From Siphonodentalium dalli (Eukaryota; Mollusca; Scaphopoda; Gadilida; Siphonodentaliidae): a stretch of DNA of 64,000 nucleotides. The stretch lies in contig CP136062.1 in the NCBI GenBank assembly GCA_032622095.1, forward strand, positions 17,983,739 to 18,047,738, written 5' to 3'. The notes under the pieces are model-generated. The model worked only from the letters and a program-made list of their open reading frames with translations. It did no database searches and was not told where the DNA came from. A program made the position numbers and the translations under genes. Shown in pieces: positions 41,128-63,202 of this stretch (the stretch's first letter is position 1; each line of letters opens with the position of its first letter).

Positions 41128-41305
41128 TCAAGGAAATCTGCGGGTGGAGCTGCGGGTGCCATAACTATGATTTTGTGAATGTCGAGCAGGACGTTGCACT
41201 GATCTGTCAGGACTTTTGCTCTTCTTTAATTCTTCTACTGTCACTCCTTTATCAGCCAGCTCCTCTTTGACTCGTCGGAGATACGTTTTATCTGGGTACC
41301 CAAAA
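41128..41305 (-). CDS. Deltex-like gene, last exon (end of DTC and basic tail)
   Basis: The acceptor 'ATATTTTTAG' precedes a single T that completes an AAT codon with the previous exon. The translation continues 'FGYPDKTYLRRVKEELADKG', the classic end of the Deltex C-terminal domain (GYPDxxYLxxVxxEL). About 37 Ser/Arg/Lys-rich residues follow, ending 'SSTRRFP' and TGA. The tail is longer than in most Deltex proteins, where the domain normally ends the chain. Confidence 0.85.
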
Positions 41306-41317
41306 CTAAAAATATTA

Positions 41318-41450
41318 ACAATACATTATTTTAGACTCGTTGGAGGTACGTTTGAAATGGGTACCCAAAGCTAAATATATTAACAATATATGATGTTTGA
41401 CTTGTTGGAGGTACATTTCATTCAGGTATCCAAAGCTGTAAAATATGATT
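41318..41450 (-). pseudogene. Two partial copies of the last exon's acceptor and first codons
   Basis: At 41367-41331 an acceptor 'ATATATTTAG' is followed by codons reading FGYPFQTYLQRV and a stop. At 41440-41400 'ATTTTACAG' is followed by FGYLNEMYLQQVK. Both resemble 'FGYPDKTYLRRVKEEL' in the real exon at 41305, and both keep the splice-acceptor AG in the same phase. They would be met first by the splicing machinery. They are either relics of tandem duplication or alternative C-terminal ends. Confidence 0.65.
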
Positions 41451-42035
41451 ACACTTACACATGGGGACAAAATGCAAGTTGTTAATACATTGAATGAATT
41501 TTATGGTAAATATTGCCGTCTAAGCCTTCACTAAGTATTTGTACCTATTAATAAAGTCCATAATCTTCGTTTAACATAAAAGTAAAATTCCAATTTCTTA
41601 GGTCAAATAAATTTTTAAAGCATGCGGTTACCAGTGATGACTTTTTGAAAAACAAAGAGGTATAACTCTTTAATGGAAATTGTGAACAACGTCAATGAAC
41701 CGTCATTTGAAGCCCCCCTGATGCCAAACATGCAAACCAAATTTCATCGAGATCCAATAACAGATGGTCGAGATATATGAGCAGACGGACACAATGATGA
41801 ATGAATGAACAGACGGATGGCCCGATAAACGCATGTAATCCAGTATACCCCCATAATTACACAGGAGAGATTCCATAATTGTAACCGATGAAAAGCCAAA
41901 TCGCTCATAAAGTCACTTAAAATGTGCAAGTGAAGTATGTTATTTAGGAACAGAACATAACTAAAATATATATTCCCCGCATTATTTTTCGACTTTATAA
42001 GGTTCCCTGTGAAAACAAAAAAAAGTTCCCATGTT

Positions 42036-42105
42036 TTGTACTGGTGGCATATGATCTCTATGGGCGTAAGCCAGAGTAGAGATTCATGGTATGATCTAAC
42101 ATGTA
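42036..42105. repeat. Decayed ATGATCT..GGTATGATCT hairpin
   Basis: 'GGCATATGATCTCTATGGGC' and 'AGAGATTCATGGTATGATCT' form a weak hairpin. A better copy is at 57566-57631. Confidence 0.4.
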
Positions 42106-42406
42106 ACGTACTAGTATAACATGAGATTGATGAGTATAAAGTACTTCACACAGCTGGTGCATGATACAGTACAAAGTATTTGGGAAGATAAAATTGTTGT
42201 AACTAAATATATTGAGAACGATATTTTTTAGAATGGGAAACTAAGACATATTACGCCATATTGGCAACATCTATTGGTTTTATGCCGAGTTGACATTGGG
42301 CCTGGTACACTCAAGTTCCACAGATTCAGTCCACTGGAATTTTGAAAACAGCATTTTCCACCCAGCATATATGTGACCCGCCATATCAAATCCAGTCGTA
42401 AGTCGG

Positions 42407-42545
42407 GATTTTTTTACCCTGTGCCAATGCATTCTCTTATATATGCGAGTCGACCATAGGTCGCCTCGCATATATAAGAGAATGCATTGGCCTAACAATT
42501 TTTTACAATTTTAATAATTTTTTCTTGTATTCTTTAACAATTTTA
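42407..42545. mobile_element. piggyBac-type MITE fragment with perfect hairpin (inverted relative to 33117)
   Basis: 'CCAATGCATTCTCTTATATA' + 'TGCGAG' is mirrored to 42493. The following 'TTGGCCTAACAATTTTTTAC' and 'TTCTTTAACAATTTT' match the left interior of the 33117-33343 element on the other strand. The TTAA ends are not retained. Confidence 0.7.
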
Positions 42546-43347
42546 TAATTTCACCCATACAGAGCCCCAGACAAACATGAGCAGACGACACTCTTCTATA
42601 TGCTTCTATATATGTGTGGGGCTCCCTGCAGGGTAATGGATGTTTTTTATTTTAATACTAGGCCAACTAAATCAATTTTTGTGTGTGTATGCAATTGTGA
42701 CTAAGTATAATTAAATACATCGAAACAAAAGTGTTTACCCAATCACAGAGCCGCAAACAAAAGGTAACGAGACTGAAACTGATAGATTTAATTTAGGAAG
42801 AGGGAAATAGTGTACGGGTTTTTCCAGGAATTACCATAACTAATCTAATTTTCTATCGCACATAATTATTTTGGCGATAGCTCTGTGTAATCATTCCAAA
42901 TCCCGCGATCATAAAGGAATGCCAACTATTCAAGGGTTTTCCAACATTTCAAGGATTTATACATACCCTATTATTCAAGGGTTTTCAATGAGTTTAGGTG
43001 AAATACAAGGTTATTCAAGGAGCCGTGGTAACCATGTTTATTGACATTAGTACAAGTCAATTTTCCTTCTCTTTGAAGACTGCCGACATCTTTTATCAAT
43101 TGAAAACTAGGATCCTTATGATGCATACCATATGAAGGTATGTGTTACGCTTTACAACACCAGTTATCCTACGTTGTTGTGCGCAGACAGTAACGTACTA
43201 TGTGGAGCCACAAAATAAGCGGCGACAAACAGGTGAGTCATATTTCTGTCTATCAATTATCTTTTTTGCGGACGAAAAAAACTAAAATCTGGTAGTACCC
43301 TTTGTAGCATATACCCTGGCATCCACAGGCAGTATTTTTCAGTAACC

Positions 43348-43563
43348 TACAGTAATGCCCTAAGTAATCCACTCCATAACCACAGCAGAATTATGGGTAA
43401 CTTTTCAGGATTTAGTCAGAAATGTGGAGTGTTGCCATTCATCGGAAAGCTCTCGGGGAGAGCTTTCCGATGAATGGCAACAAGCCATATTTCGACTAAA
43501 TCCTGAAAAGTTACCCATAATTCTGCTGTGGTTATGGAGTCGATTACTTAGGGCATTACTGTA
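43348..43563. mobile_element. TA-flanked hairpin MITE (CAGTAATGCCCTAA family)
   Basis: Full copy 'TACAGTAATGCCCTAAGTAA' to 'TTAGGGCATTACTGTA', centred on 'CTCTCGGGGAGAG'. Repeated at 44885-45100 by the tandem duplication. Confidence 0.8.
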
Positions 43564-43589
43564 TCCTTAGAATTATTGAAATTATATTA

Positions 43590-43741
43590 TAGTCGGAATT
43601 ATGGCTTGTTGCCACTCATCGGAAAGCTCTCAGTGAGAGCTTTCCGATGAATGCCAACAAGCCATATTTCTGATTAAATCCTGAAAAGTTACCCATAATT
43701 CTGCTGTGGTTAAGGAGTCGCTTATTTAGGGCATTACTGTA
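43590..43741. mobile_element. CAGTAATGCCCTAA-family MITE, left end truncated
   Basis: Starts within the left arm at 'TCGGAATTATGGCTTGTTGC' and runs to 'GGGCATTACTGTA'. Repeated at 45127-45278. Confidence 0.75.
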
Positions 43742-43815
43742 TTTCCGAACATCCAAATCATGTGATCAAATACAGGGAGTTGTTTCTGGACCAACATACT
43801 GGAAAATGAAAGTAT

Positions 43816-44115
43816 ATGATGAAGTCTGAGGATGGCATAGTTCCAAATGAACAAGTGAAAGAATTAAAAGCGAATAGATATGAGCAAAGGGATGGTGTAT
43901 ACATAATCAACAATATTACGAAAAAGAATAAACTAAACAGTCCAGTAAAAGTCCCAGAAAGCAGAAGGTCAATCACATTTGAAGACCAATGTCGCCGAAA
44001 TGAGAGTCAGGAAAGCAGGATAATAGGAGCTGACGATACATCGACCAATGAAAAGGAGACATTCTTAAGAGAAGTCGCCACTTTGATGCCATGGCAACTA
44101 TTTCATATACAATAA
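43816..44115 (+). CDS. Small ORF of unknown function (copy 1), doubtful
   Basis: 99 residues, charged, starting 'MMKSEDGIVPNEQVKELKAN'. The exact same ORF is at 45353-45652. No domain was recognised. It lies in an intron on the opposite strand and next to MITEs, and its composition is protein-like. It may be an exon of a transposon or chance. Low confidence that it is a gene. Confidence 0.2.
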   Translation: MMKSEDGIVPNEQVKELKANRYEQRDGVYIINNITKKNKLNSPVKVPESRRSITFEDQCRRNESQESRIIGADDTSTNEKETFLREVATLMPWQLFHIQ

Positions 44116-44884
44116 ATATTCATGGTGGGTGACGGGGTTTGCCGAATGGAAGTGGGCGTCGCCTATACAAGACCTCATATTCCCAACTGTTGCAAAAATG
44201 TGGACTGGGAAATGGACTAGTCACAGTCAACTGCGTAAACATTGTGTGGCTTGCTGGGTGTGGGAAAAAAGTTGAATTTTTCGCCTGTTCTTCTATCAAA
44301 ATGATGGCTATCTTCATGTGATTTTCGTTTTGATGAATAGCCTGTTGTTCTGGCCCTACCTCGATCATGCGCTCGTTTTCATTTAGTAAATAATCAACAT
44401 AATTATTTTGGCGATTGCTCTGTGTAATCATTCCAAATCCCGCGATCATAAAGGAATGCCAACTATTCAAGGGTTTTCCAACATTTCAAGGATTTATACA
44501 TACCCTATTATTCAAGGGTTTTCAATGAGTTTAGGTGAAATACAAGGTTATTCAAGGAGCCGTGGTAACCATGTTTATTGACATTAGTACAAGTCAATTT
44601 TCCTTCTCTTTGAAGACTGCCGACATCTTTTATCAATTGAAAACTAGGATCCTTATGATGCATACCATATGAAGGTATGTGTTACGCTTTACAACACCAG
44701 TTATCCTACGTTGTTGTGCGCAGACAGTAACGTACTATGTGGAGCCACAAAATAAGCGGCGACAAACAGGTGAGTCATATTTCTGTCTATCAATTATCTT
44801 TTTTGCGGACGAAAAAAACTAAAATCTGGTAGTACCCTTTGTAGCATATACCCTGGCATCCACAGGCAGTATTTTTCAGTAACC

Positions 44885-45278
44885 TACAGTAATGCCCTAA
44901 GTAATCCACTCCATAACCACAGCAGAATTATGGGTAACTTTTCAGGATTTAGTCAGAAATGTGGAGTGTTGCCATTCATCGGAAAGCTCTCGGGGAGAGC
45001 TTTCCGATGAATGGCAACAAGCCATATTTCGACTAAATCCTGAAAAGTTACCCATAATTCTGCTGTGGTTATGGAGTCGATTACTTAGGGCATTACTGTA
45101 TCCTTAGAATTATTGAAATTATATTATAGTCGGAATTATGGCTTGTTGCCACTCATCGGAAAGCTCTCAGTGAGAGCTTTCCGATGAATGCCAACAAGCC
45201 ATATTTCTGATTAAATCCTGAAAAGTTACCCATAATTCTGCTGTGGTTAAGGAGTCGCTTATTTAGGGCATTACTGTA
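44885..45278. mobile_element. Two CAGTAATGCCCTAA-family MITEs (duplicate copies)
   Basis: The 1537-bp-shifted equivalents of the MITEs at 43348-43563 and 43590-43741. Confidence 0.8.
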
Positions 45279-45352
45279 TTTCCGAACATCCAAATCATGT
45301 GATCAAATACAGGGAGTTGTTTCTGGACCAACATACTGGAAAATGAAAGTAT

Positions 45353-45652
45353 ATGATGAAGTCTGAGGATGGCATAGTTCCAAATGAACAAGTGAAAGAA
45401 TTAAAAGCGAATAGATATGAGCAAAGGGATGGTGTATACATAATCAACAATATTACGAAAAAGAATAAACTAAACAGTCCAGTAAAAGTCCCAGAAAGCA
45501 GAAGGTCAATCACATTTGAAGACCAATGTCGCCGAAATGAGAGTCAGGAAAGCAGGATAATAGGAGCTGACGATACATCGACCAATGAAAAGGAGACATT
45601 CTTAAGAGAAGTCGCCACTTTGATGCCATGGCAACTATTTCATATACAATAA
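45353..45652 (+). CDS. Small ORF of unknown function (copy 2), doubtful
   Basis: Identical to the ORF at 43816-44115, carried by the tandem duplication. No recognised domain. Confidence 0.2.
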   Translation: MMKSEDGIVPNEQVKELKANRYEQRDGVYIINNITKKNKLNSPVKVPESRRSITFEDQCRRNESQESRIIGADDTSTNEKETFLREVATLMPWQLFHIQ

Positions 45653-46202
45653 ATATTCATGGTGGGTGACGGGGTTTGCCGAATGGAAGTGGGCGTCGCC
45701 TATACAAGACCTCATATTCCCAACTGTTGCAAAAATGTGGACTGGGAAATGGACTAGTCACAGTCAACTGCGTAAACATTGTGTGGCTTGCTGGGTGTGG
45801 GAAAAAAGTTGAATTTTTCGCCTGTTCTTCTATCAAAATGATGGCTATCTTCATGTGATTTTCGTTTTGATGAATAGCCTGTTGTTCTGGCCCTACCTCG
45901 ATCATGCGCTCGTTTTCATTTAGTAAATAATCAACATACCATATTACATTTATCGTTTCCGAAAGCAAAACAAGAACAACTTACACACTTGGAAGTCCCT
46001 GTTCGCTTAAAATAGATTATGTAATTCATGGAAGGGGAACGAAACACACGCGAAACGAAATTCTCATAGTTCGATTGAACAGCCACAGCGAGTGAGTGAA
46101 CTCTTTGATGCGCGTCGATGTTTGATCATCATACTTTAATTTAGTCTTTACCGGCAAAAATCATGCTTACAGATCATCGTAATTTGGGCACAATTTTGCA
46201 TT

Positions 46203-46420
46203 TACAGTAATGCTCTAATTAATCAACTTCTTAACCACAGCATAATTATGGGTAACTTTTAAGGATTTAGTCGGAAATATGCCTTGTTGCTATTCATCGG
46301 AAAGCTCTCGGCAAGAGCTTTCCGATGAATGGCAACAAGCTATATTTCCGACTAAATCCTGAAAAGTTACCCATAATTTTGCTGTGGTTAAGAAGTCGAT
46401 TAATTAGAGCATTACTTTAT
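46203..46420. mobile_element. TA-flanked hairpin MITE (CAGTAATGCTCTAA variant)
   Basis: 'TACAGTAATGCTCTAATTAA' to 'TTAGAGCATTACTTTA', with the same interior arms as the family ('ATTATGGGTAACTTTT'). Slightly diverged ends. Confidence 0.75.
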
Positions 46421-47207
46421 GACACACTATTTACCGGCTCTAAATTGGAGGAATTTAATATAGGAAACATGTATTTATCGGTAGACGAATTCACTAGTAT
46501 ACTCCTTTGACTTAATAGTATTCACTAGTATACACCTATGACTTAATAAAATGGAATCTTCCATCATAACTGTCCAAAAAAATGCAACATATCAAGTTAC
46601 TTGGACACGTTTCATTGTATCAGATATTTCTATTATCGTTTAGTTCATAGGGATTTGATGAGACATATTCCATGGTATTTTAATGACAAATATAGCCCTA
46701 ATATTCAAGTTAGCGAATATTTCAGATCACAGTTGTGAACAAAGCTTACATTATATTCTGCACCAAGTTGAAGATGTGGTACTTGTATATACTCAGAGTA
46801 TTATTTCAGGTCCTCTGATGATATTTACACTTGGTTTCAATCTATTTCCCCATTTTATCCAGGAAAGAACATATTTTTGGTGCAAAACAGCGCACACATG
46901 TTATCTTTTTTTGGCGCACAATTGTTATCTTTGTCATTTCTCAGGTGCGCACATGTTATCCATGAACGCTGGCTGGTGGTTCCCAAATTGTCATTTTCTT
47001 GTGATAAACTTGAACAAAAGATAGGGTTATATTGGTTATTTGGGTACCCAAGAGAACCAAAATCATAGTTATGTTGAAACGTTTGAGCATGTATGAGTTT
47101 TTTTCGGCAAAAATTGCCACCGAAGTGGTGCAAGTTACTTCGAAAACAGAAACTGTCGCATTGATATGGTAATAATTTCAATAATTTTAAGGATAGGATA
47201 CTGAAAA

Positions 47208-47275
47208 AACTTTCTATGGATGCCAGGGTATATGCTACGAAGGGTATTACCAGACTTTTGTTTTTTCGTCAGAGA
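47208..47275. repeat. Inverted copy of 43265-43335
   Basis: 'GATGCCAGGGTATATGCTAC' and 'GGGTATTACCAGA' match the complement of 43265-43335 (and of 44802-44872). The rest of 46421-47650 has no recognised feature. Confidence 0.6.
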
Positions 47276-47649
47276 AAAAGTGAAACATGTTTCACATGTT
47301 TGTTATAGCTCAGTTTATGACACAAATGTCAGATAACTGGAGTGTTTACATTGCATTGAAAATAGAATCTCTCTGTTGTGTGTGTTAATGGATACAACGT
47401 AACAGATGTATCACAGCCTTGGTGTTATTTTCTCTAATAAATTTCCTGCACAATGCACGCAATGTACTCATTTCAACGCTACTTTAATCAATTTACTTAT
47501 GAACAGTTTGGAGACATTGTAAAAATAGATTTACTTACGAACAGTTTTGAGAAATGGTAAATAGTTTACTTTCAGATTTCGTTATAGAGACTCACTAATT
47601 CGTCAATATGAATGAAAATCCATCGTAAAGAGAAACTGTACATAACTCA

Positions 47650-48225
<576 letters not shown>

Positions 48226-48264
48226 TGGATTGGGATGGTTTTCTTGCAAAGATTCTTTCTATAA
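48226..48264 (-). pseudogene. Partial copy of the exon 4 start
   Basis: The minus strand reads 'CTTTGCAAG' followed by codons ENHPNPSRL, against 'CTTTTCAG' and [10 protein letters not shown] at the real exon. The 24-bp array lies between the two copies, so the array may have grown from or within a duplication of this junction. Confidence 0.6.
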
Positions 48265-48884
48265 TAAATAATATAACGCCCACTAATGCTGCATTTCATT
48301 TTAGAACTTTATTTATAATTGGTTACCCAGCATTGCAAGGGTTAAAAGAGTACACAAGCCTTTAATATTATTTATTACGGGTGACAGATAATAAAGTCAC
48401 TTACTAAATATATTCACATTCTTTACCAATGCCAAAGATGAACCCACAACACTAACAGTTAAGTGTCCCGACCCTTCTGCCATTATTTTGGTGACTTTAT
48501 ATCACGCCATTAGATTCCCATTATCATGTCGATGCATCTTAGTTTGCAGAAAATTGGTAAATTTACAATGAGAAGTTTGGAACATAATGTGATAAGATAT
48601 CTGAGAAATTAAACAATTCCATTTTTTCCCTGCACAGAACAAAATTTATCACATATTAATTAGCCCCTAAACCTGGCCTCATATTTTTTAGTAAGACACA
48701 CATGTATTATTGGCACATGCAGGGATGTAACAGCTTAGCGCAATAATATCGATCAATGTTATTATTATGTTAATTAGTATACAACTATGAAATTAATTTT
48801 GTCAATTTTGTCAACATGAAAGCTTGGCTCGAATAGAATTTAGTACACTTGGTTAATAATTTTATACAGAATTGCGACTCATCA

Positions 48885-48965
48885 GAGATCCTCTATGGTG
48901 CGGGTGCCTATGATAAACAACTAATATTTTGTGTTGAACGGCCTTATATATAGTGAATTATTATT
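48885..48965. repeat. Copy of the exon 3 downstream intron segment
   Basis: 'GATAAACAACTAATATTTTG' and 'CCTTATATATAGTGAATTAT' match 54935-54990 and 55030-55095. This links the two sides of the 48.97-54.90 kb block. Confidence 0.6.
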
Positions 48966-48979
48966 AAATATAAATTAAA

Positions 48980-49600
48980 GTCGAGGAGAATCCTCCAGGG
49001 AGGCTCTCAATCTAAGCAAAATCCTTGTAATGGTCTAGCACTTTCGATAACTGGTGTATCTTCATCAGGACCAGAATGGCATGGGCAGAAGTGGATTTTT
49101 GCCTGTCCTTTTATACTTTAGATTGGTTGAGAGTGTAATTTGATTGGTCAATGAGTAGAGGTCAGTGGGTAGTAGTTAACCCAGAAGAGGTCATGAGGTG
49201 GTGTGCGGGTATATTGCGGGTATTTTTTCCCGTTGAGATTTGCGGGTAGTTTGTGCGGGTATATGGTCGCTTCCCCATAACTGCAGTTCAGTGCGGGTAG
49301 TTGTGTGGGTATGTTGGATTCGGTGCTCCAAATATGTCGGTTGGCCCTTGATTTCCGTTCAATTTGTGCGGGTAGTTCAAGCGGGTATGTTTTTTACCAT
49401 ACACTGTGGTCGAGTGCAGGTAGTGGTAGCGGGTATGTTGGGTGCATTGCTACAGGTGACCAGGTGTGTGCATAGATTTGAGTATGAACGTTTGGGGTAT
49501 ATGATATGTAAGCCTGGTTGCCCAAGCTTTGTGGTTGCGGGTATGCGTCGAACATGCAACGTTCATACGGCCGGAAATGATGTGGCTATGTCGTTTTAAT
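48980..49600 (-). mobile_element. Possible Penelope-like element fragment
   Basis: On the minus strand: repeated 'ATACCCGCA' motifs, 'TATAAAAGG' (about 49120), then 'CCTGATGAAGATACACCAGT' and 'TATCGAAAGTGCT', then 'GAGAGCCTCCCTGGAGGATT'. A CTGATGA..GAAA core after a TATA-like motif is reminiscent of terminal repeats of Penelope-like elements, which can carry hammerhead ribozyme motifs. No GIY-YIG or reverse transcriptase was seen. Tentative. Confidence 0.3.
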
Positions 49601-50707
49601 CATGACAATAAGTACCCAACACTGGTGTGTATTGTTTAGTATCCGTAGTTGTAGTGCTCCGTTGATGGTATGGGTACTTCTTGTATCCAGGTATGGTTTA
49701 CAAGAGGATTTATCTATCGCGATATATCTTGTGCAGAGCGTGCACGAGTGGGGTGTGGTTTGTAATTGTTTAAACAGGAAGGTCTTGATTAGCAGAGACC
49801 CATGTTGGGTGTTGCGTGGTCGCGACGATGGTGGTTTGTTGGTGTGCAGAGTGTGAGTATATATAATATTTTTTTACCCAAAATATGTATCTCCTATAAT
49901 AAATATCTTGGACACTGAAACTAATGGTTATATATTCTTGCTTGCAAGAAATCTAGAAGTCGTAAAAAAAACAAATCGGTACGCAATACCTCGAGTCAAA
50001 TGCCAATTAATGGCGATATATTCTTTGGACCAATCATGCGAGTCCTTTCACTATAACAGCGATGGAAAGACAAGACCTCATTCATTTTAATTTCTTCCTC
50101 CTGTGTGTTTGATGCGTTTGACCGAGTGCGCGGGGCGGGAATGTTGATCCCAACTGGGAGGGCCCTCTATGTTCAGTGTCCAAGATATTTATTATAGGAG
50201 ATACATATTTTGGGTAAAAAAATATTATATCTCCTTCAAATATATCTTGGACACTGAAACTAATGGTTATAATTAGAATTCTTGAAGAGGAGGAGGCCAC
50301 GAGGCAGATAATCCGACTATGTCCATGAAACCCACCTGCTGAAGCAGAAAAGACCTGCATCCTGTACCAAAAAGATTTCTTGGTAGACATGTGCCAAAAA
50401 TAGATCATTGTGTCCCATATGTAATAGTTCAGATAAACTCAAAAACAACTGAGCCTCCTAACAGGAAACACCACGTACTTCATGTGTCCTACTAGTAATG
50501 ATCACAGGGTGAAGGGGTCCAGGATAAACATTGGTCATAGGCAAGGGGGATAACTCATTCATTCATGTACCTAATAGGATAAAGGAACCTATCCCACCCC
50601 CCCCCCTCCTTAGAGGATGAAGCAGCACTATCACGACATCCAGAGGATGCTGACTGGCCCACAATACATGCAAAAGGTGCAACGAGGGGAAAACACGGTT
50701 ATGACAG

Positions 50708-50736
50708 CCCCCCCCCCCCCCCCCCCCCCCCCCCCC
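50708..50736. repeat. Poly-C run (29 bases)
   Basis: A C homopolymer, preceded by a shorter C run at 50596-50607. Its length may be unreliable. Confidence 0.8.
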
Positions 50737-50739
50737 GCC

Positions 50740-52105
50740 AGAAAAGCTGAATCAATACTCAGAATGGATCTCACAAAATGAGGCAATGCTCAGTGCGGTA
50801 TGACCGACTTGACAGTATTTTGAGCCCGACCGAGAGACCCAGGGGAGATATGAGAAACCGTTGGGCCCAGACCAATGGGGGTCCGGGAATCACCAGGAAA
50901 ACATGACATGAGTTGAGCACTGGAAATCATGACCCTGGAAAGAAAAAACATACACATAAGGGAGGGGACCAAGATGGAAAGATTGCCTGCCTCTGGTACA
51001 CCAAGCCAAGGAACTGGAAATTGAAGTGTACGGGCAACCAAGGAGAGGAACTAATACCGCGACTGGAACACTGTCTGATCACACGGCCAATCTGTGATGC
51101 AATGAACCGGCCTGCATGGTTTCAAAATAAATGTGGAACTTAGTTTAATATCGTTCGTCAGGTGGTGGTATAGGAAACCCATACCGTAGGTTAGCAGAAA
51201 GTTACAAAAACTGTGATAACCCGCCAACTGGTATGCTCAAGCACCGATGGGCATGCAGCAATAAGTGTGAAATGTCGCAAAGGTGAGAATCGGTAATCGC
51301 TAAATCAGATTAGAATTAGAATCACGCCTGCCAAGTGATGTTAAACACTCGGCCCGAGTGATAACATAGAATTGGAAAATATTCTTGGTTCAAAGTCTGT
51401 GAGCACTGTGACAAAGACGATAACAAAATGGACTACGTACATGACGCCTAGACACCAATGAAATGCCGATACGCTATATGATGAAATCCTATGGTGTTAG
51501 GTGGTCACTGAAAGATACATCCCAAATCTAGAAGTAAAATTGAAAATGAGCATAGTTCAGACGATAGTGTCTATGGAGCTGAACGGTCGATATTCATGAT
51601 ATGTTCGGCGAAGTGAGTAGAGCGCCAATTTCCCCTGTGAGATATAGCACCCGCATACTAACTTATCAGGTTCACACACACGATCAAGTCCATAATACGT
51701 CTAGGTTTGTCTCATAAAAGCGGCCTAATTGTTGAATAAAAATCTAACAGATTAGAAGGCCCAAAACTATAAAGACAGGTCTCAACAACACCTGGAATAC
51801 CCCGACGGGATAAGAACGGAGGTGAGAATGGAGGCGAAAGAAACTTATTCAGGAGCAGTTCCTGAATGCGGCACATAGCCAGAGCAATGCGATATGGCAG
51901 AAAGCAGACTGACCGAGGAAACCTCAGAGTACAAAGAATGAAGGTAATATTGTACAAAACACTCAGTCGAATGAATGCCACTTGTCGGCGACTAGGAACA
52001 ATGAGGTAGCCAAGGCAAGAAAGGGTTCGGAAAAACCGCTATGTGCCGTGACAGCATGAACCTGGATGGACTGAGACAGAACGAGCGGTAGATGCTGCAG
52101 AACCT
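50740..52105. other. Interior of the inverted-repeat block, no recognised gene
   Basis: Base composition is more balanced than the A/T-rich surroundings. Only short ORFs without motifs are seen. Confidence 0.35.
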
Positions 52106-52119
52106 CCATCGCTGCTCGT

Positions 52120-53430: not shown

Positions 53431-53469
53431 CAGCAGAGGTGCCACGATCATTGAACTTGATAATCGATA

Positions 53470-54687
53470 GTCAATACTAGATTAGAATTGATGAAGCGTA
53501 TCTAATAGCAAGGACAGAGGAAGTAGTGCATAATATTCACATGTGCATAATTTGTATCAGAAACCACCGAGACTGTCCTTCCCATGACAAAAAATATAGT
53601 TTCGTTGATTAGAAGGGTGTAATTGCACCGGTAATATAATTGTGAGTTGGGGTTATCTCAAATCAAAGGTCATTGTGTGATATACCCAAGTCCACTGACA
53701 ATTTCACATGCCCATAAATTAACGGAGATGGGAAATGTGCTAAATATATCTTCGCATATTTTAATATTGATGGTGACCAGGTGGACAAGTGCAAATGGTG
53801 AATACCCGTGAATAGAAAATTGCGAGAGCAATCGTTACTGACTCGTGGGAAGGAAAGCCGGTAATTAGTAATGAGCACAATGCGTTACCAATATCTTTGC
53901 ACGATCAACGATCGTTAACCTGTCCGTTGGATATTAAACTGTAAAACAGGTTATCCAAATATGTCTGGTACTTTTCGACATCCGAAATAAAGAACTCAGA
54001 CTAATCGCAGCCGAAAATGGTCATCGAATATCGGCCGTATCAACATTTCATCGATTATACGCTTAATTGTGGCACCCCTACCTGTCGGAGGGAAATAACA
54101 TTTCGAAGTTTTCATCGGAAAAGCATTGAGCCTTATGTTCAATGTAGAGAGAAGAGGCAAGCCACACTGTGGATATTTTATCTAGCATCCGTGAGGAAAA
54201 TTATTGTAAAATATTGTAATGTAAAATATTGTAAATTATTACTTCTAATACATTTGGATAGGATTTTGTCAGGGACCAAACTCCAAACTGGAGTGTAGTG
54301 GAGACGACAACACGATATTGCATCCGGTGCAGTGTTAACAAAATCCTGACGAGAACCCGAAAGACTCGAAAGAGCATCGGTTTGTTTTATTGAGTATTGA
54401 TTTATGCAAACAAAAACGATATTTGTTCTAAGTGATTCTCGTAAATAAAACAAAATTGAAATATTTGTTAATGAAAATATCCACCCACGGACTACTGTCA
54501 TTAATAAGACAGTATTGTAGAATAAAAGATTGTTGAACAATTGTAAAACTAAATTGCGAAAATTGGAAAACACGTGCGTAGTGCACGAAATTAGGCAACT
54601 GCGTGTTGTCGTTCGCAATAGCATAAAGAGAAACGTTCATGAGAAATGAACAGATAAAAAATGCGACTTATCTTGCGTCTAGAAGAA
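53470..54687. other. Interior of the inverted-repeat block, no recognised gene
   Basis: A/T-rich sequence with overlapping short ORFs (54017-54298, 54178-54624) that lack motifs. Confidence 0.35.
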
Positions 54688-54911
54688 TTTAAAATGAATG
54701 AGGTCTTGTCTTTCCATCGCTGTTATAGTGAAAGGACTCGCATGATTGGTCCAAAGAATATATCGCCATTAATTGGCATTTGACAAGTGCGCGTACTCGA
54801 GGTAATGTGTACCGAATTTTTTTTTTTTACGACTTCTAGATTTCTTGCAAGCAAGAATATATATAAACCATTAGTTTCAGTGTCCAAGATATATTTGAAG
54901 GAGATATTATT

Positions 54912-55036
54912 AAATATACCTTCCGGATTCCACTCCAGATGACATAGATAAACAACTAATATTTTGTGTTGAGTGGCCTTATATATAGTGAATTATTATA
55001 CAGTATACCTTCTGCATTCCACTCTGGATGGTATAG
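54912..55036 (-). pseudogene. Two partial copies of the exon 3 end and donor
   Basis: 55035-55006 reads codons YTIQSGMQK and 54945-54917 reads YVIWSGIRK. Each is followed by a GT donor ('AAG|GTATA'), as at the real exon 3 end (YALRTGIQK|GTATAC at 55107). The copies are about 92 bp apart and include the same downstream intron segment. They are partial tandem duplicates that kept frame and donor. Confidence 0.65.
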
Positions 55037-55106
55037 ATGCTTAAGATAAACAACTAATATTATGTGTTGAGTGGCCTTATATATAGTGAATTATTATACA
55101 GTATAC

Positions 55107-55630
55107 CTTCTGGATTCCAGTCCGGAGGGCATAGTTTATTTCTATAGCACCATAGCTCTCGTATCCCGCTAGATGTTTGAAAGATTTAACACTTGATTCC
55201 ATCGTTCCGTCTTCAGGCTGATCCCCCGTCAGTATGCCGTACACCTTCCCACACAACGGACAGGTCGGTTTGAACTTAAAGCTCTGATCTATGCAGTCCT
55301 TACAGAAGACGTGACCACACTTATCGAGCTTTTTAGGCTCGGTAATCTTATCCATGCATATGGAACAATTCTCCTCCTCCGGCTTCTCATCCTTTATCGT
55401 TCCCATTGATAAAGGTTTTTCAGGTGCTTTATTTTTTGAGTTGTTTTTCGAGTCATGTTTGTCGCAGTCTTTACAAAGATTGATCATTCTCTCCCTGAGT
55501 TTCGACTGTGCTACATCTTTTTCGGTGATGACGTGGATTTCAGACAGTGACCGATCACTGCGTGATATCTCACAAATAATTAAATCAAATAATAAATTGA
55601 CTGCTGTTTCTTTTGGTGCACCAGCATTAC
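55107..55630 (-). CDS. Deltex-like gene, exon 3 (end of macrodomain 2, RING)
   Basis: The acceptor 'TTTTTTGTAG' and the donor 'GTATAC' bound it. It begins with 'GNAGAPKETAVNLLFDLI', the C-terminal phosphate-loop part of macrodomain 2. A Lys/Asn-rich linker follows, then a C3HC4 RING with Cys 713, 716, 729, His 731, Cys 734, 737, 748 and 751 ('CSICMD', 'CGHVFCKDC', 'CPLC'). After it come the Deltex linking block with 'GDQPEDGTM' and 'HLAGYESYGAIEINY'. GDQPxGTM after the RING is diagnostic of DTX3/DTX3L-type ligases. The RING would recruit the E2-ubiquitin. Confidence 0.92.
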
Positions 55631-55679
55631 CTACAAAAAATAATATATGTTGGAATAATTACTTTCGCATGAATTATTT

Positions 55680-56560
55680 ATACTCATTTATAGTAACATA
55701 AATATCTATCATTCTTCATAAAGGTCACACACAGGTGATACAAAAGTAATTTTATGTCCTATAATCAATAAAAAACCTGGAAAATTCCGTTGAAAAAAAT
55801 CTATTATTATTATTAAAAAACCGAATTTTGTAGCCAGATTGGACAGGTAGCAGAAGGTAGGAGCTTCACACTATCCAAATAACCTGTTGACATTATTACA
55901 ATACATAAGTGATTTAAAGATGGTCTATCTATTCCGGGTCACAATTACAACAACAACATAAATTTTATAAGTCCCAATTTCAATATTACAAACAGCTATT
56001 TTGTGAATAATTTAAAATACAGAAAAACCATCATTCCCAGATGAACAAAGAAGGATAACTTTAGAACGGAATGACAATGTTTTTAGGCACTCTTTGAAAG
56101 CACTTCTGATGGCATCCATCCATACCAAGTTTCATTCAGATCCGATGAACCATGACTGAAGATATCTGGGCACACATGTATTATCTGTTTGGCAGTCTGT
56201 TGTCTCATTATATTTATGAACCATGAGTGAAGATATTTCGGCAGACATGTATTATCAGTTTGACAGACAGTTGTGTCTGATTATATTTCCCAAACTGTAC
56301 ACTTTTTTAATAAATGATGGGGAATCTATTTAGTAAAGAAATTGTTAACTCTATAATAAATACTCAGGAAATGTTCAGATAATAATTTCAACAAATGTCA
56401 TTTGCTAGGTTGAACTTATCATCTGAACTTACAAAGAATATAAATCCTTTTGCACTTGTATTTTCTCATCTACTCATTTTCCTAAACACCCCCTCCAATT
56501 TAATAGTAGATGATTCCAATGTATACTATTAAACTGAATGGGAGAATCCATTTAGTGAAG
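55680..56560. other. Intron between exons 2 and 3
   Basis: About 1 kb. It includes two related pieces ('GAACCATGA.TGAAGATAT.', 'GACATGTATTATC.GTTTG') at about 56145-56205 and 56215-56270. No gene. Confidence 0.4.
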
Positions 56561-56572
56561 AGTTAAACTTAC

Positions 56573-56662
56573 CTGCGCACAGTATCGGGAAAGTAACAGA
56601 ATGTAGCGCATATGCATCAATGGTTGTGAAAACTTTCTTAATACAGTCCGAGAAAATGGGAG
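56573..56662 (-). pseudogene. Partial copy of the exon 2 end and donor
   Basis: The minus strand reads 'SDCIKKVFTTIDAYALHSVT' + FPILCAG, followed by a 'GTAAGTTT' donor. The real exon 2 end reads 'SDCIKNVFTRISEYGLQTVT' + FPILCAG with the same donor at 56694. Upstream of the copy there is no obvious acceptor. It is a partial tandem duplicate 122 bp downstream of the real one. It could act as an alternative donor only if the intervening sequence were retained. Confidence 0.7.
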
Positions 56663-56694
56663 AATCCATTTATAAAAGAAAGGGTTAAACTTAC

Positions 56695-57420
56695 CTGCAC
56701 ACAGTATCGGGAAGGTAACCGTCTGTAGCCCGTATTCACTGATCCTTGTGAAAACATTCTTAATACAGTCAGAGAATATATTCTCAAATTTGTCTTTTTC
56801 ACTTCGATATCCTGGTAAAACAACATGGACAACATGTCGAGTAGGCAGATTTCCACCGCATGTTATGAAAACAGTCCCGAGTTTATCTTCATGCCTATTC
56901 GACATCTCCGACAAATGATCCTGATAATCCTTTCCTCCTTTCCTCTTTACTGCATTTTGTAAATATCCGTTAGAACTCCTGTTCCATCCAATCACTATAC
57001 AGTCAGTATTTACTTTTAGTAAATCACCTTTGTAACCATAAATCGTTGTTTTGCTCAATTCACACATGTCAGCCTCAGTACCATTTTCTAATTTAATTTT
57101 TTTGTATCGTCCGATCTTCTCACTTTTGGACTCTTTCATTTCATCATCAACCATCACATAGCTGTCAAGCTGTAGGTTCTCTGACATACCATCTCCTTGT
57201 TGATAATGTGAGTCGACACCTTGGTAGACTGATTGATCAATGGGGTTCACTATGGGTGAATTCTTCCGGAATTCTGTCTCCATCTTGGAAAGCATATCCT
57301 CACTAACATCAACAAAATGGATCACCTCCAGCGTTGAGTTTGATGTTCTGTGTTCGCTGTAGTATCGTGCTGCATCAGCGTAAACCTTAGCACAATGTCG
57401 CTTTGGTACTCTGTAGATAC
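56695..57420 (-). CDS. Deltex-like gene, exon 2 (end of macrodomain 1, most of macrodomain 2)
   Basis: The acceptor 'TTTTAACTTTAG' and the donor 'GTAAGT' bound 726 bp, phase 1 to phase 1. The first codons complete macrodomain 1 (SG + IYRVPKRHCAKVYADAAR, in the usual SSGIYG..P position). After a linker, macrodomain 2 runs from 'TTIYGYKGDLLKVNTDCIVI' through 'GTVFITCGGNLPTRHVVHVV' to 'VTFPILCAG'. It lacks the NAAN motif ('IGWNRSSNGYLQ' instead) and the GGG loop, so it is probably a reader or structural domain rather than a hydrolase. Confidence 0.88.
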
Positions 57421-57565
57421 CTAAAGTTAAAAGATATCATAACATTCACATCTGACCTATTATAGTTACAGGGACAGATATATTATTTACCGAGGGCATT
57501 ATGGTTTTGTGATAACATTCATTTGAAAGCCATATAGTAGGAGTATACGATGTACGTTGTATAGT

Positions 57566-57631
57566 ATAGATCATGCCATGAATCTGTACATAAGGGCATT
57601 AGCCAAAGTAGAGTTTCATGGCATGATCTAT
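57566..57631. repeat. Hairpin with ATAGATCATGCCATGAA arms
   Basis: 'ATAGATCATGCCATGAATCT' is mirrored by 'GAGTTTCATGGCATGATCTA' around 'CATAAGGGCATTAGCC'. Related to 42036-42105. It lies in intron 1. Confidence 0.65.
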
Positions 57632-57859
57632 GTGTAGTATTGCACTAATGTTAACTTGAAGAAAAGATTTAATTTTGCCTAGTAACATTTAATGAAATAT
57701 TCATGGTTCCAGGCCTCCATGCAGTTACAACATAACATATTTTTGCATTATTCCAATGAAAAAGAAATTGTGAAAAAACCAAATGTGACATATAAACTAG
57801 ACACATTACACACACACCAATATGTCATATAACCCTTGCAAAAAGAAATCCGAGCTATT

Positions 57860-59470
57860 TTAAAGAAGTTTGGGAATCCTAGGAATTCATAGGATTTCCA
57901 AGGTTTGAACCAAGCTTTTTGAATGAAAATATTTACTCTTCAACAAAGTTTGGAAATCCTTGGTTGGAACCTTGGTAAAGCTTAGTAAAGCTTGGATCTA
58001 AGTTTTACCAAGCTTTACCAAGCTTTACCAAGGTTGTCACATAAAGTGAAACCTTGGAAAAGCTTGGAAAAGCTTGGAAATCCTTGACTCAGTGTTGACC
58101 AACCTTGGTAAAGCTAAGTAAAGCTTGGATCTAATAGTTACTAAGCTTTTCCAAGCTTTACCAAGGTTCTTACATGAAGTTTGAAAAGCTTGGAAATCCT
58201 TGGAAAAACTTGGTAAAGCTTAGTTGTAGGTCACATGACTGGGTCACATGACTATGCAGACGTCACTGTTGTATGTGGCAGCATTTTGAATTAACTGTTG
58301 CACTGAGTTTAAATCCATGCTTTATCACAACAATTTTCACATAAGTTATTGTTTGTGTGGCCATGATGTTTTCTATTTTACTCATAGCATATGGCTGTAC
58401 ATGTAGTGATATTTTTATTTATGATATTATTTTAACAATTGTTTTACCATTTCCAAGACTGACCTTAAGGACCACTATCTACCTTTTCATTCAAAAGGCT
58501 TGTCCATATCATTATTTATTTATAGCTAATTTATCTAATTTAACTGTTTTATCACACTCCAAATACCTCAGATCCATAAACATATACCTGTGAATATTAT
58601 TCTATACATTTTACATGGTATAAGGTACCATTTATCTCAATCTAAATAGAATAACAAAATTCTGACTGAAAAGTGAACTTTGAATGAATATCATGAATGA
58701 TTATATGGCATGGTTCATGACTGTTTTAAATTTCAAGAGATTGTATCATTAATGATGATGCTATTGTCAAAGTTGAAGCCTTTGCAGTGTCATTAGTGAT
58801 TTTCACCTTTTAAATACAAAACAATTGCAACCTTGGTAAAGCTGGGTTGCAACCTTGACCAAGGTCGTTTACAACCTTGGTAAAGCTTGGTAAAGTTAGG
58901 TTGGAAAGCTTGGTAAAGCTTGGAAAAGCTAGGCTGCAACCTTGGTAAAGCTTGGAAAAGCTGAGCTGGAACCTTGGTAAAGCTTGGAAAAGCTAGGCTG
59001 GAACCTTGGTAAAGCTTGGAAAAGCTAGGTAAAGCTAGGCTGGAACCTTGGTAAAGCTTGGTAAAGCTAGGTAAAGCTAGGCTGGAACCTTGGTAAAGCT
59101 AGGCTGGAACCTTGGTAAAGCTTGGTAAAGCTAGGTAAAGCTAAGCTGGAACCTTGGTAAAACTAGGTAAAGCTAGGCTGGAACCTTGGTAAAGCTAGGT
59201 AAAGCTAGATTGGAAACCTTGGTAAAGCTTGGTAAAGTTATGATTAAGATTTTGTAAAGCTTGGAAATCCTTGGATAAGCTCGGTATAATTTGCTGAGGT
59301 ATTCCAAGGTTTTCCGAACTTGAAACGTTCCAATACCGCCCCAAGGATTTCCCAGCTTTTCCAAGGTCTCTGATCCTAGGATATCCTAGGAATTCCAAGG
59401 AATTTTCCTAACTTTTCCAAGCTTTTATTCCTAGGATATCCTAGGAATTCCTTGGATATCCTAGGACATT
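57860..59470. repeat. Degenerate CCTTGGTAAAGCTTGGAA repeat field
   Basis: Dense repeats of 'CCTTGGTAAAGCTTGGAAAA', 'GCTAGGCTGGAA' and their complements at 57860-58220 and 58825-59470. Between them (58240-58820) is an A/T-rich piece without repeats. The last part adds 'CTAGGATATCCTAGGAATTC'. Confidence 0.75.
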
Positions 59471-59488
59471 TTGGTAAGGGAAACTAGG

Positions 59489-61335
59489 CATATTACACAC
59501 ACCAATGTGTCATACAAACTAGGCACATTACACACACCAATGTGTCATATAAACTAGGCACATTACACACACCTATGTGTCATATAAACAAGAGGTACGC
59601 TGCCGCGTGGCATTTGCCCCCGACCGTAGCAATTCGGATTAAGCATGGACGAAACTGCGCATATCCGTGGAGGTCTATATGACCATTCCAAAAGAAGTTT
59701 GTACAGAAATGTTGACTAAAAACCCCAAAACAAGCGATCCGGAAACCCAAAAACAAGCGAAAATTCAAATTTTCTAAGTTAAGAAAAGGGCCATAACTCT
59801 GGCAAAAATCATCAGATCATACCCAAATTCGCGCTTGACATGTATTTTCATATAACTGATCCACAAAAATACAGGATTTACAATCGTACCACCAAAGCTC
59901 ACGCTATCATCTGGAAACCCCAAAAAACAAGAGAAAAATTGAATTTTCTAAGTAAAAAAGGGCCATAACTCTGGTGAAAATGGCTGGACGAAACCCGTGC
60001 TATGCATGTAGCTGTTCCCCCATGCTGCTCTATCACCATACCAAATATCAGCTAAATCTGCCCAGCGGTTGCTGAACAATAATGCAAAATGTTCGTACGG
60101 ACGGACAAAATTCAAATTTTCTAAGTTGAAAAAAATGGCCATTACTCTGGCAAAAATCATCAGATCATACCCAAATTCGCACTTGACATGTATTTTCATA
60201 TAACTGATCCACAAAAATACGGGATTTGCAATCGTACCACCAAAGCTCACGCTATCATCTGGAAACAAAAAAAACATGAGAAAAATTGAATTTTCTAAGT
60301 AAAAAAAAGGGCAATAACTCTGGTGAAAATGGGTGGACGAAACCCGCGCTATGCATGTAGCTGTTCCCCCATGCTGCTCTATCACCATACCAAATATCAG
60401 CTAAATCTTCCCAGCGGTTGCTGAACAATAATGCAAAATGTTTGTACAGATGGATAAAATTTAATTTTCTAAGTAAAAAAAAGGGCCATAACTCTGGTGA
60501 AAATGGGTGGACAAAACCCATGTTATACATGTAGCTGTTCCCCCATGCTGCTCTATCACCATACCAAACTCTATCACCATACTAAATCTGCCCAGCGGAT
60601 GCTGAACAATAATGCAAAATGTTTGTACGGACAGACGTACGGACGGACGGACAGAGACGTCGACTATATACCCGCCGACTTCAAGTCGGGGGCATAATAA
60701 ATGGGGCATTATACACACACCAATGTGTCATATAAACTAGGCACATTAAACACACCAATGTGTCATATACACTAGGCACATTACACACACACGCCAATGT
60801 GTCATACAAACTAGGCACATTACACAAACCAATGTGTCATATAAACTAGGCATATTACACACACCAATGTGTCATATAAAATAGGCACATTACACACACA
60901 CCAATGTGTCATATAAACTAGGCATATTACACACACTAATGCGACATATAAACTAGGCACATTACACACCAATGTGTCATATAAACTAGGCATATTACAC
61001 ATACCAATGTGTCATATAAAATAGGCACATTACACGCACCAATGTGTCATATAAACTAGGCACATTACACACACCAATGTGTCATATAAACTAGGCATAT
61101 TACACACACCAATGTGTCATATAAACTAGGCATATTCCACACACCAATGTGTCATATAAACTAGGCATATTACACACACCAATGTGTCATATAAACTAGG
61201 CATATTCCACACACCAATGTGTCATATAAAATAGTAAAATTACACACACCAATGTGTCATATAAACTAGGCACATTACACACACATCAATGTGACATATA
61301 AACTAGGCACATTACACACACACCAATGTGTCATT
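59489..61335. repeat. 35-bp satellite, ~21 copies, split by an inserted element
   Basis: The unit is 'ACTAGGCACATTACACACAC' then 'CAATGTGTCATATAA'. About three units precede the insertion (59489-59588) and about eighteen follow it (60702-61335). Variants include CATATT for CACATT and added CA. Confidence 0.85.
59585..60701. mobile_element. GGCCATAACTC-type element inserted in the satellite
   Basis: Starts 'AACAAGAGGTACGCTGCCGC' and ends 'CAAGTCGGGGGCATAATAA'. Four tandem modules carry 'GGGCCATAACTCTGG', 'CATGCTGCTCTATCACCA' and 'TGTTTGTACGGACGG'. With satellite on both sides, both termini of this family can be read here. Confidence 0.8.
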
Positions 61336-61470
61336 TTGTTATTGAACAATTGAAACAATTAATTATTTTCTGTCCCTCTAACAGATTGAGACTATATCAA
61401 ATAAATAGAGAGAAAAATCCGTATCAAACAAAATAGTGTCTATCACAGTTAAATTGTAGCAAAATGGGTC

Positions 61471-61669
61471 AGGTTACTATGAATCGGGTGGCAGGTTACT
61501 ATGAATCGGGTGGCAGGTTACTATGAATCGGGTGGCAGGTTACTATGAATCGGGTGGCAGGTTACTATGAATCGGGTGGCAGGTTACTATGAATCGGGTG
61601 GCAGGTTACTATGAATCGGGTGGCAGGTTACTATGAATCGGGTGGCAGGTTACTATGAATCGGGTGGCA
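61471..61669. repeat. 22-bp perfect tandem repeat, nine copies
   Basis: The unit 'AGGTTACTATGAATCGGGTG' + 'GC' is repeated without a visible mismatch from 61471 to 61669, followed by 'CAACAGTACAGTACAG'. It is intronic, about 390 bp from the exon 1 donor. Confidence 0.92.
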
Positions 61670-61799
61670 CAACAGTACAGTACAGTATTGTCAATTGAAC
61701 AAAAAGATATACCGTAATAACGGCTATTTAAAATCACCACTCTTTTGATAAGTAAGCACACATGACTTCTGGTAAATTGTTATCCAAATAAACACGGGG

Positions 61800-61972
61800 G
61801 ATTAACTAATAACTGTGGAGACTCACATATATAAGAGAATACATTGGCCAAATAATATTTACCTTGACAATGTAAGTCAGTGTATTCTCTAATATATGTG
61901 AGGCTCCCTATGGGAGACACTGGCACAGGATCAATAATGCTACACCAGCTCGGCTCCTGTCATGAAAGGGTT
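61800..61972. mobile_element. Diverged TTAA/hairpin MITE near exon 1
   Basis: Contains 'TCACATATATAAGAGAATAC' mirrored by 'GTATTCTCTAATATATGTGA' and ends 'CATGAAAGGG' + TTAA. It resembles the piggyBac-type hairpins at 33117 and 42407 but is more diverged. It lies 84 bp downstream of the exon 1 donor. Confidence 0.55.
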
Positions 61973-62055
61973 AATGAATGACTGCACAGGTTTTAGTGAG
62001 GCCTGGGGATATTCTGACTGACTGGCCAAAAGTCTGGCTATTATGAATACTATAC

Positions 62056-63202
62056 CTGAGCTGATAGTGCACACGGCTATGGACTTGGCTTTGATCTTGT
62101 CGGCCTCAATGAAGCAGATATGCACAGCCTTGAAAAGGTCGTTCAGGCAGTCTGATTTGCTTAATGGGTAGTCGTCCCACTGAGGTCCGACGGTGTGTAT
62201 CACGCTATGGCATGGCATCCTTCCCGCGGACGTGATATAAGCTGAACCTATGTCTAACTTCCCTTGTCTCATAACCAGATTGTCACTTTCCACCCTGATA
62301 ATATCACCGCCGGCTCTTTCTATGGCAGCCGCGATTCCACCACCATGCCTCATCTCCGCATTAGCTGCATTCACGATAGTGTCAACCTGAATTTTAGTGA
62401 TGTCAGCCCGGTGAACTTTAACCCAAAGCTTTTCTCCCAGCTTGATCATGTCATCATCAACCTTGTGTGAAGTATCATCTGAAACATCGTCTGCATCATC
62501 GCTTGCAAATTGTCGCCGTTTTCTCGATTTTGTTTTCTTTGGGCCTAGAAGGTATTGGAGTTTATTCTTCACCATAGAAATCTCTTCCCAGTCCAAACTC
62601 TGAATTCTTATTTTGCGATTAGAATCATCCATTAAAATATTACATGAGAAATTCTTCTCGCAATCCGATATGATTTCTGCGAGTTCGGCCTGTGAATCGG
62701 GCTGATATTCCACAACATCCTCATTGACATGAGGGATTATATCAACGTCGTGACTAATAAGCCTACTGAACGTGACAACATCATGCTTTTGGCAGAATAA
62801 TCTGACCATCCCATCTTCGTTTAATTGAATTCTTATGAACTGAGAATCGATCAAGCTCTTTAATAATTTTAACTTTGAAAACTGCATGGTTTTGTCGTAA
62901 TCTTTCCTAGAAAGCAGTTTGAACTCTATGTTCTTTTCCTCATTTTCACTCTGACTTCTAGATACTACAGATGGCAAGAGAGCAGCTGTGTGTGGCTCAG
63001 CATGTCCAATATAGTGTTTAATAGCTTTTTCTGCTTCTAAGATCTGGTACATCGTTCCCTGGAATTCAATCGTGTTTTTCCTTTGGACAGCCTCGAGTCC
63101 TGTTTGCAATTTCACTTTCCGTTTCATATCGCTGACAGCACTCTTGCACTCAGCAGCTTCAAATAAGCTTTGTCGTAACTGAACTTTGACTTCACAAAAA
63201 AC
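62056..63202 (-). CDS. Deltex-like gene, first exon in window (KH-like region, macrodomain 1)
   Basis: The acceptor 'ACATTTTCAG' at 63203 and the donor 'GTATAG' at 62055 bound 1147 bp. The frame is open from the first codon, so this is an internal exon and the start codon lies upstream of the window. Residues 1-220 resemble the KH-like repeats of PARP14/DTX3L-type proteins ('EFQGTMYQILEAEKAIKHYI', 'LQYLLGPKK'). 'KKTKSRKRRQ' (about 223-231) could be a nuclear localisation signal. Macrodomain 1 starts at about 257, with 'DTIVNAANAEMRHGGGIAAA', 'GSAYITSAGRMPCHSVIHTV' and 'AVCTISSG'. The ADP-ribose-binding NAAN and HGGGIA loops are intact, so binding and perhaps hydrolysis is expected. Confidence 0.9.

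Follow-up and report, generated by a model that had tools for sequence, protein, structure and literature searches.

Vertebrates couple the macrodomains of PARP9 to the ubiquitin ligase DTX3L in a known protein complex (PMC13224862, PMC10810221). Does the locus studied here, from the scaphopod mollusc Siphonodentalium dalli, encode such a combination as one chain, as an earlier note made from the sequence alone had claimed, and if so, where do its parts belong? The window, i.e., the whole 64,000-nucleotide stretch that was analysed, corresponds to C2:17983739-18047738 of a 2.2-Gb genome in nine sequences.

Gene model and continuity of the chain

The five phase-compatible minus-strand exons listed in the earlier note (Table 1) were all confirmed, with canonical AG/GT borders and an open frame. 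Spliced across introns of 4.6, 1.1, 7.2, and 6.3 kb, exons A-E (2793 nt; phases 0, 1, 1, 0, 2) encode 930 residues, the length noted earlier, plus a stop, with no internal stop codon. A Pfam search of the spliced protein returned two Macro domains (161 bits in total, E 1.1e-47), a C3HC4 RING (7e-11), and a DTC matching positions 1-133 of the 133-position profile (4.7e-57), in the order macrodomain 1 (MD1), macrodomain 2 (MD2), RING, DTC. The RING (residues 712-751) directly precedes the complete DTC (759-893), which is the arrangement that marks a Deltex E3 ligase.

Table 1. Coding features on the minus strand of the window (window coordinates)
Feature	Position	Strand	Length and phase	Content	Splice sites
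Exon A	62056..63202	-	1147 nt, phase 0 in	N-terminal region and first ~90% of MD1	acceptor TTTTCAG, donor GTATAG; conserved in four other genomic copies
MD1, exon A part	from ~62374	-		NAAN...HGGGIAAAI, ...ISS/G
Exon B	56695..57420	-	726 nt, phase 1	MD1 end, linker, MD2 beginning	acceptor CTTTAG, donor GTAAGT
MD1 end	to ~57287	-		GIYRVPKRHCAKVYADAA...
Degenerate MD2, first part	~57075-56695	-
Exon C	55107..55630	-	524 nt, phase 1	MD2 end, RING, DTC beginning (GDQPEDGTM...GIQK)	acceptor TTGTAG, donor GTATAC
MD2 end	55630-~55505	-
C3HC4 RING	~55367-55251	-
Exon D	47651..47868	-	218 nt, phase 0	DTC core ENHPNPGK...WNDIHHKT...GGPE, with catalytic His	acceptor TTTCAG, donor GTGAGT
Exon E	41128..41305	-	178 nt, phase 2	DTC end FGYPDKTYLRRVKEELADKGV, with catalytic Glu; basic C-terminal tail, TGA stop	acceptor TTTTAG

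Each of the four introns interrupts a domain. MD1 is divided between exons A and B (ISS/G-IYRVP), MD2 between B and C (PILCAG/G-NAGAP), and the DTC among C, D, and E, with the D/E division at GGPE/N-FGYPD. Joining the exons raised the Pfam score of MD2 from 52 to 62 bits once exon C was added, and the three exon pieces of the DTC scored 26, 113, and 28 bits versus 192 bits when joined. Because MD2 is completed on the RING exon, the macrodomain and RING parts cannot be two genes; the earlier note's proposal of a single gene holds up in this respect, exon C carrying both the MD2 end and the RING. The introns are long and the exon joins are predicted, so that two neighbouring genes, one for macrodomains and one for a RING-DTC, might have been chained by eye. 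This reading is largely refuted, and is scarcely credible, given the domains that run across exon borders, the conservation of exon order and phases in diverged copies, and the recurrence of this design in two distant subfamilies (both below). That exons A-E form one gene, with macrodomains and a DTX3L-type RING-DTC in the same product, is strongly supported.

Duplications lie among these exons. Beside the real exons are a short local duplication of the exon B 3' end (window 56580-56640), a duplicate of the exon C 3' end with its donor (54930-55050), and a degenerate exon E copy (41340-41400). A block of ~1.54 kb is also duplicated near-exactly in tandem at 42844-46095, the open reading frames of 42844-44275 matching those of 44390-45812.

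The gene continues upstream beyond the window, and the 930 residues are therefore only part of the protein: exon A opens with a splice acceptor, and a conserved exon of matching phase lies just past the window edge. This 65-nt exon, IDKVLEDKEFNKYNPRRPKPN, is at C2:18047887-18047951, enters exon A in phase 0, is conserved in two copies, and itself requires a further exon upstream. The first coding exon was sought across 29 kb upstream of the window copy and of copy g3 (one of the two complete copies described below), and across 20 kb upstream of copy g5; this yielded just the 65-nt exon and then minisatellite arrays. A made-up RRM-like probe matched the RRM repeats of PARP14-like genes and an exon designated Z, and no upstream exon here. 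The minisatellite arrays in the 5' introns or flanks are very long (>14 kb) with differing units, and occur at C2:18.056-18.073 Mb and upstream of the 17.4 and 17.6 Mb copies. The N-terminal region in exon A, which the earlier note called KH-like, is possibly so: in a single-sequence AlphaFold model its helices and strands follow one another as in a KH domain, at a pLDDT of only 43, and Pfam gave the region no match even at E 10.

Affinities of the RING-DTC and the macrodomains

Compared with solved structures of DTX3L, DTX2, and DTX1, the RING-DTC matched DTX3L best (1.5e-52), then DTX2 (3.6e-40) and DTX1 (3e-35). Identity to DTX3L was 63% over the DTC in the tree alignment, and 67 of the 98 residues of the core DTC segment are identical in the human protein. 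Both catalytic residues are present, in IHHKT and KEEL aligned to structure 3pg6, with their 26-residue spacing conserved. By alignment they are the equivalents of DTX3L H707 and E733, which are catalytic and strictly conserved, and activate the 3' hydroxyl of ADP-ribose for ubiquitin (PMC10810221).

Among solved macrodomain structures, MD1 was closest to PARP14 MD1 (3vfq, 2e-41), followed by PARP9 MD1 (4e-29), and MD2 to PARP14 MD2 (6.7e-18), with PARP9 MD2 far lower (about 3e-5). Hydrolase-competent macrodomains of macroPARPs are recognized by a loop-1 Asn and Gly and a hydrophobic-aromatic pair in loop 2 (PMC10221186), and the MD1s of PARP14 and PARP9 both act on glutamate-linked ADP-ribose (PMC10499325). 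MD1 has all of these residues, the loop-2 pair being I-Y; MD2 has neither the loop-1 nor the loop-2 set. By this residue rule MD1 should be hydrolase-competent, and MD2 should at most bind.

The earlier note had described the protein as PARP9 and DTX3L in one chain. The DTX3L half of that description fits the RING-DTC, but the PARP9 label is too specific because the macrodomains match PARP14 best, no ART/PARP domain (PF00644) was matched within the C2:14-18 Mb cluster, and published work places PARP9 in jawed vertebrates only. The survey in question found PARP9 absent from non-vertebrate metazoans and identified PARP14 as the ancestral macroPARP (PMC10221186), and a 2026 review remarks that PARP9 and DTX3L together resemble PARP14 with added ubiquitylation modules (PMC13224862). 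Like PARP9, the chain has two macrodomains of which the first is hydrolase-competent by its residues; it ends in a DTC and has no C-terminal ART-like domain. Nor does it unite macrodomains with an ART domain in one protein, as a macroPARP does. A literal PARP9-DTX3L fusion, with the ART-like domain in exons not yet seen, would have to place that domain in the unseen 5' part of the gene. It is very improbable: the PARP-domain matches of the genome (C2:196 Mb, C6, C8, and others) all lie outside the C2:14-18 Mb cluster, and the ART of PARP9 is C-terminal to its macrodomains, where the window chain has RING-DTC. Judged by sequence, the chain should not be called a fusion of PARP9 and DTX3L; the best label is a Deltex ligase of DTX3L type bearing an MD1-MD2 tandem of PARP14 type.

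Copies, subfamilies, and bacterial relatives

Further copies, in the same exon order, occupy C2:14.415-14.436, 17.595-17.623, and 17.867-17.898 Mb; a fourth, at 17.415-17.487 Mb, is partial. The first (C2:14414950-14435800), 3.6 Mb from the window, is 99-100% identical including its introns; it is possibly an assembly duplicate (uncollapsed haplotype) or a very recent segmental duplication, and was left out as independent evidence. The complete copies at 17.6 and 17.9 Mb (g3 and g4) are ~4-10% divergent in exons A-C and retain all splice sites, phases, and the frame, their indels being of 3 or 12 nt. Comparison of copies gave dN/dS values of 0.1-0.5 across exons A-D, the highest (about 0.5) in exon A; exon E is near-identical between copies and therefore carries no signal of selection. 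The gene model is not a product of chance, because its exons, splice sites, and phases recur at C2:17.60-17.62 and 17.87-17.90 Mb with dN/dS <1 in exons A-D.

Individual copies have changed at functional positions. The 17.9 Mb copy has an altered DTC catalytic His (IFHKT; C2:17888000-17888600, L024), the 17.4 Mb copy has lost the RING from exon C by an in-frame deletion (C2:17486200-17486900, L032), and NHAN replaces NAAN in MD1 of both. Since one copy is without the DTC His and another without the RING, some members of the family are decaying or repurposed. The window gene could itself be a non-functional or decaying member of this tandem family, as might be suggested by its recent relatives at C2:14.4 and 17.4-18.0 Mb, some of them with the RING deleted or the DTC His lost, and by the moderate dN/dS, above all in exon A. 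We consider this improbable, as frame, splice sites, and catalytic residues are intact in the window copy and substitutions are mainly synonymous per site.

More distant relatives have the same design. A single-copy gene at C2:118.174-118.191 Mb encodes macro, RING, and DTC domains (Pfam 1.5e-23, 2.1e-8, and 1.1e-39) with about 33% identity in the macrodomain and 44-57% in the RING/DTC. Exons for macro, RING, and DTC also follow one another in order in a set of genes at C3:242.28-242.65 Mb. The C2:118 and C3:242.28 genes both have the phase-1 intron in macrodomain loop 2, the exon running from the RING to the DTC start, and the early DTC intron, after GIQ/GTQ, of the window gene. Because the genome holds three diverged subfamilies, a very recent fusion is unlikely. 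Within the C3 set there are near-identical pairs (242.28/242.57 and 242.34/242.64 Mb), which may be haplotypes left uncollapsed or segmental duplications of very recent date.

The only WWE-paired DTC gene of the genome is at C4:23.06-23.11 Mb, DTX1/2/4-like and without a macrodomain partner. PARP14-like genes with macro, WWE, and PARP domains are separate, at C2:195.5-196.8 Mb. There and at 181.4-181.7 Mb, large clusters hold many RRM-like and macrodomain matches, with WWE and PARP at 195.5-196.8 Mb; they are a strongly expanded PARP14-like family.

A DTC scan of prokaryote genomes showed that other genes than the one in the window also combine macro and DTC in a single chain. A contig of Endozoicomonas cretensis carries an uninterrupted 1040-residue frame (L040:3310-6432, plus strand) with two macrodomain stretches and a full DTC, the latter 58% identical to that of the window protein and with DTX3L as its nearest solved structure; no RING was detected in the frame. 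DTC matches occurred in 12 of 37 Endozoicomonas-family genomes (bacterial DTC proteins L040:3310-6432 and L055-L065; genomes G001, G003, G009-G015, G020, and G021). In Pfam searches of eleven such proteins (L040 and ten others), six had macrodomain(s) with DTC, two RING with DTC, and three DTC only. They are plausibly host-derived effectors; the DTC tree, mostly unresolved, fixes neither the number nor the direction of transfers to bacteria. Neither of two Endozoicomonas genome papers mentions Deltex in its main text, and the window DTC query found no DTC relative in viral contigs.

Proposed function and known systems

The gene model, domain order, catalytic residues, and diverged complete copies are observed, and from them we infer activities. 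In our judgement the window exons probably belong to an intact animal gene for a DTX3L-type Deltex E3 with a PARP14-type MD1-MD2 in cis, N-terminal to the RING-DTC, which would serve as an ADP-ribose reader, probable eraser, and ADP-ribose-directed ligase. The macrodomains would dock onto proteins or nucleic acids that carry ADP-ribose, a modification probably added by the PARP14-like enzymes that this genome encodes separately. MD2 would be a reader only, and MD1 would probably also remove glutamate-linked ADP-ribose. The RING would recruit E2~ubiquitin, and the DTC would hold ADP-ribose so that ubiquitin passes to the target or to the 3' hydroxyl of ADP-ribose itself. Docking would thus be followed by either erasing or ubiquitylation, the choice being made in cis, and one chain would perform the work of the vertebrate PARP9:DTX3L complex. 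The presence of the MD1 motif and the DTC His and Glu, and the lack of the motif in MD2, fit the earlier note's proposal that one protein could read ADP-ribose, possibly trim it, and attach ubiquitin; both the hydrolase and the ligase activity are predicted ones.

The macrodomains may alternatively be readers that simply target the E3 to ADP-ribosylated substrates, with no erasing. The NHAN of MD1 in the 17.4 and 17.9 Mb copies, the recurrent loss of MD1 in mammalian PARP14 (PMC10221186), and the competition for the same ADP-ribose that an active eraser would offer the ligase make this a real, if somewhat doubtful, possibility; the window copy, however, has every loop-1 and loop-2 residue for hydrolysis. 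The protein offers a compact single-polypeptide system for asking if hydrolysis competes with ubiquitylation for one and the same ADP-ribose. It also joins two signalling chemistries thought relevant to antiviral and DNA-damage responses. A role in either could be proposed by analogy only; in Aplysia, antiviral-type genes are co-expressed with a transcript that carries a DTX3L annotation (PMC8195618), which is no more than suggestive.

The literature searched contains no description of a macro-RING-DTC animal protein, and the single-chain form adds a new architecture to the Deltex family. As a "Rosetta stone" fusion, in which activities complexed in vertebrates are found as one chain, it favours the idea that recognition by macrodomains and ubiquitylation of ADP-ribose by Deltex ligases make up one functional unit, and it bears on the origin of the vertebrate PARP9/DTX3L locus. 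We tentatively raise the idea that a single-chain reader-eraser-ligase is the old animal form, of which vertebrate PARP9:DTX3L is a split derivative, and that macro-DTC coupling recurs in bacteria associated with marine animals because of its usefulness.

The window protein resembles four known systems in part. It shares with DTX3L the C3HC4 RING followed by a DTC with catalytic His and Glu, but the human protein has RRM/KH-like domains and no macrodomain, whereas here two macrodomains precede the RING and the Tyr of the YGYPD motif is replaced by F. The Endozoicomonadaceae proteins likewise have macrodomain(s) and DTC in one chain, but they are bacterial and intronless, and no RING was detected in the macro-bearing ones. 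PARP14 provides the best match among solved structures to the MD1-MD2 tandem, but its third macrodomain, WWE, and ART are absent from the seen part of the window protein. The PARP9:DTX3L heterodimer is similar in coupling tandem macrodomains, the first hydrolase-competent by sequence and the second not, to a RING-DTC; it differs in having two chains rather than one and an ART-like domain that is absent here, and the macrodomains here are nearer to PARP14 MD1 and MD2.
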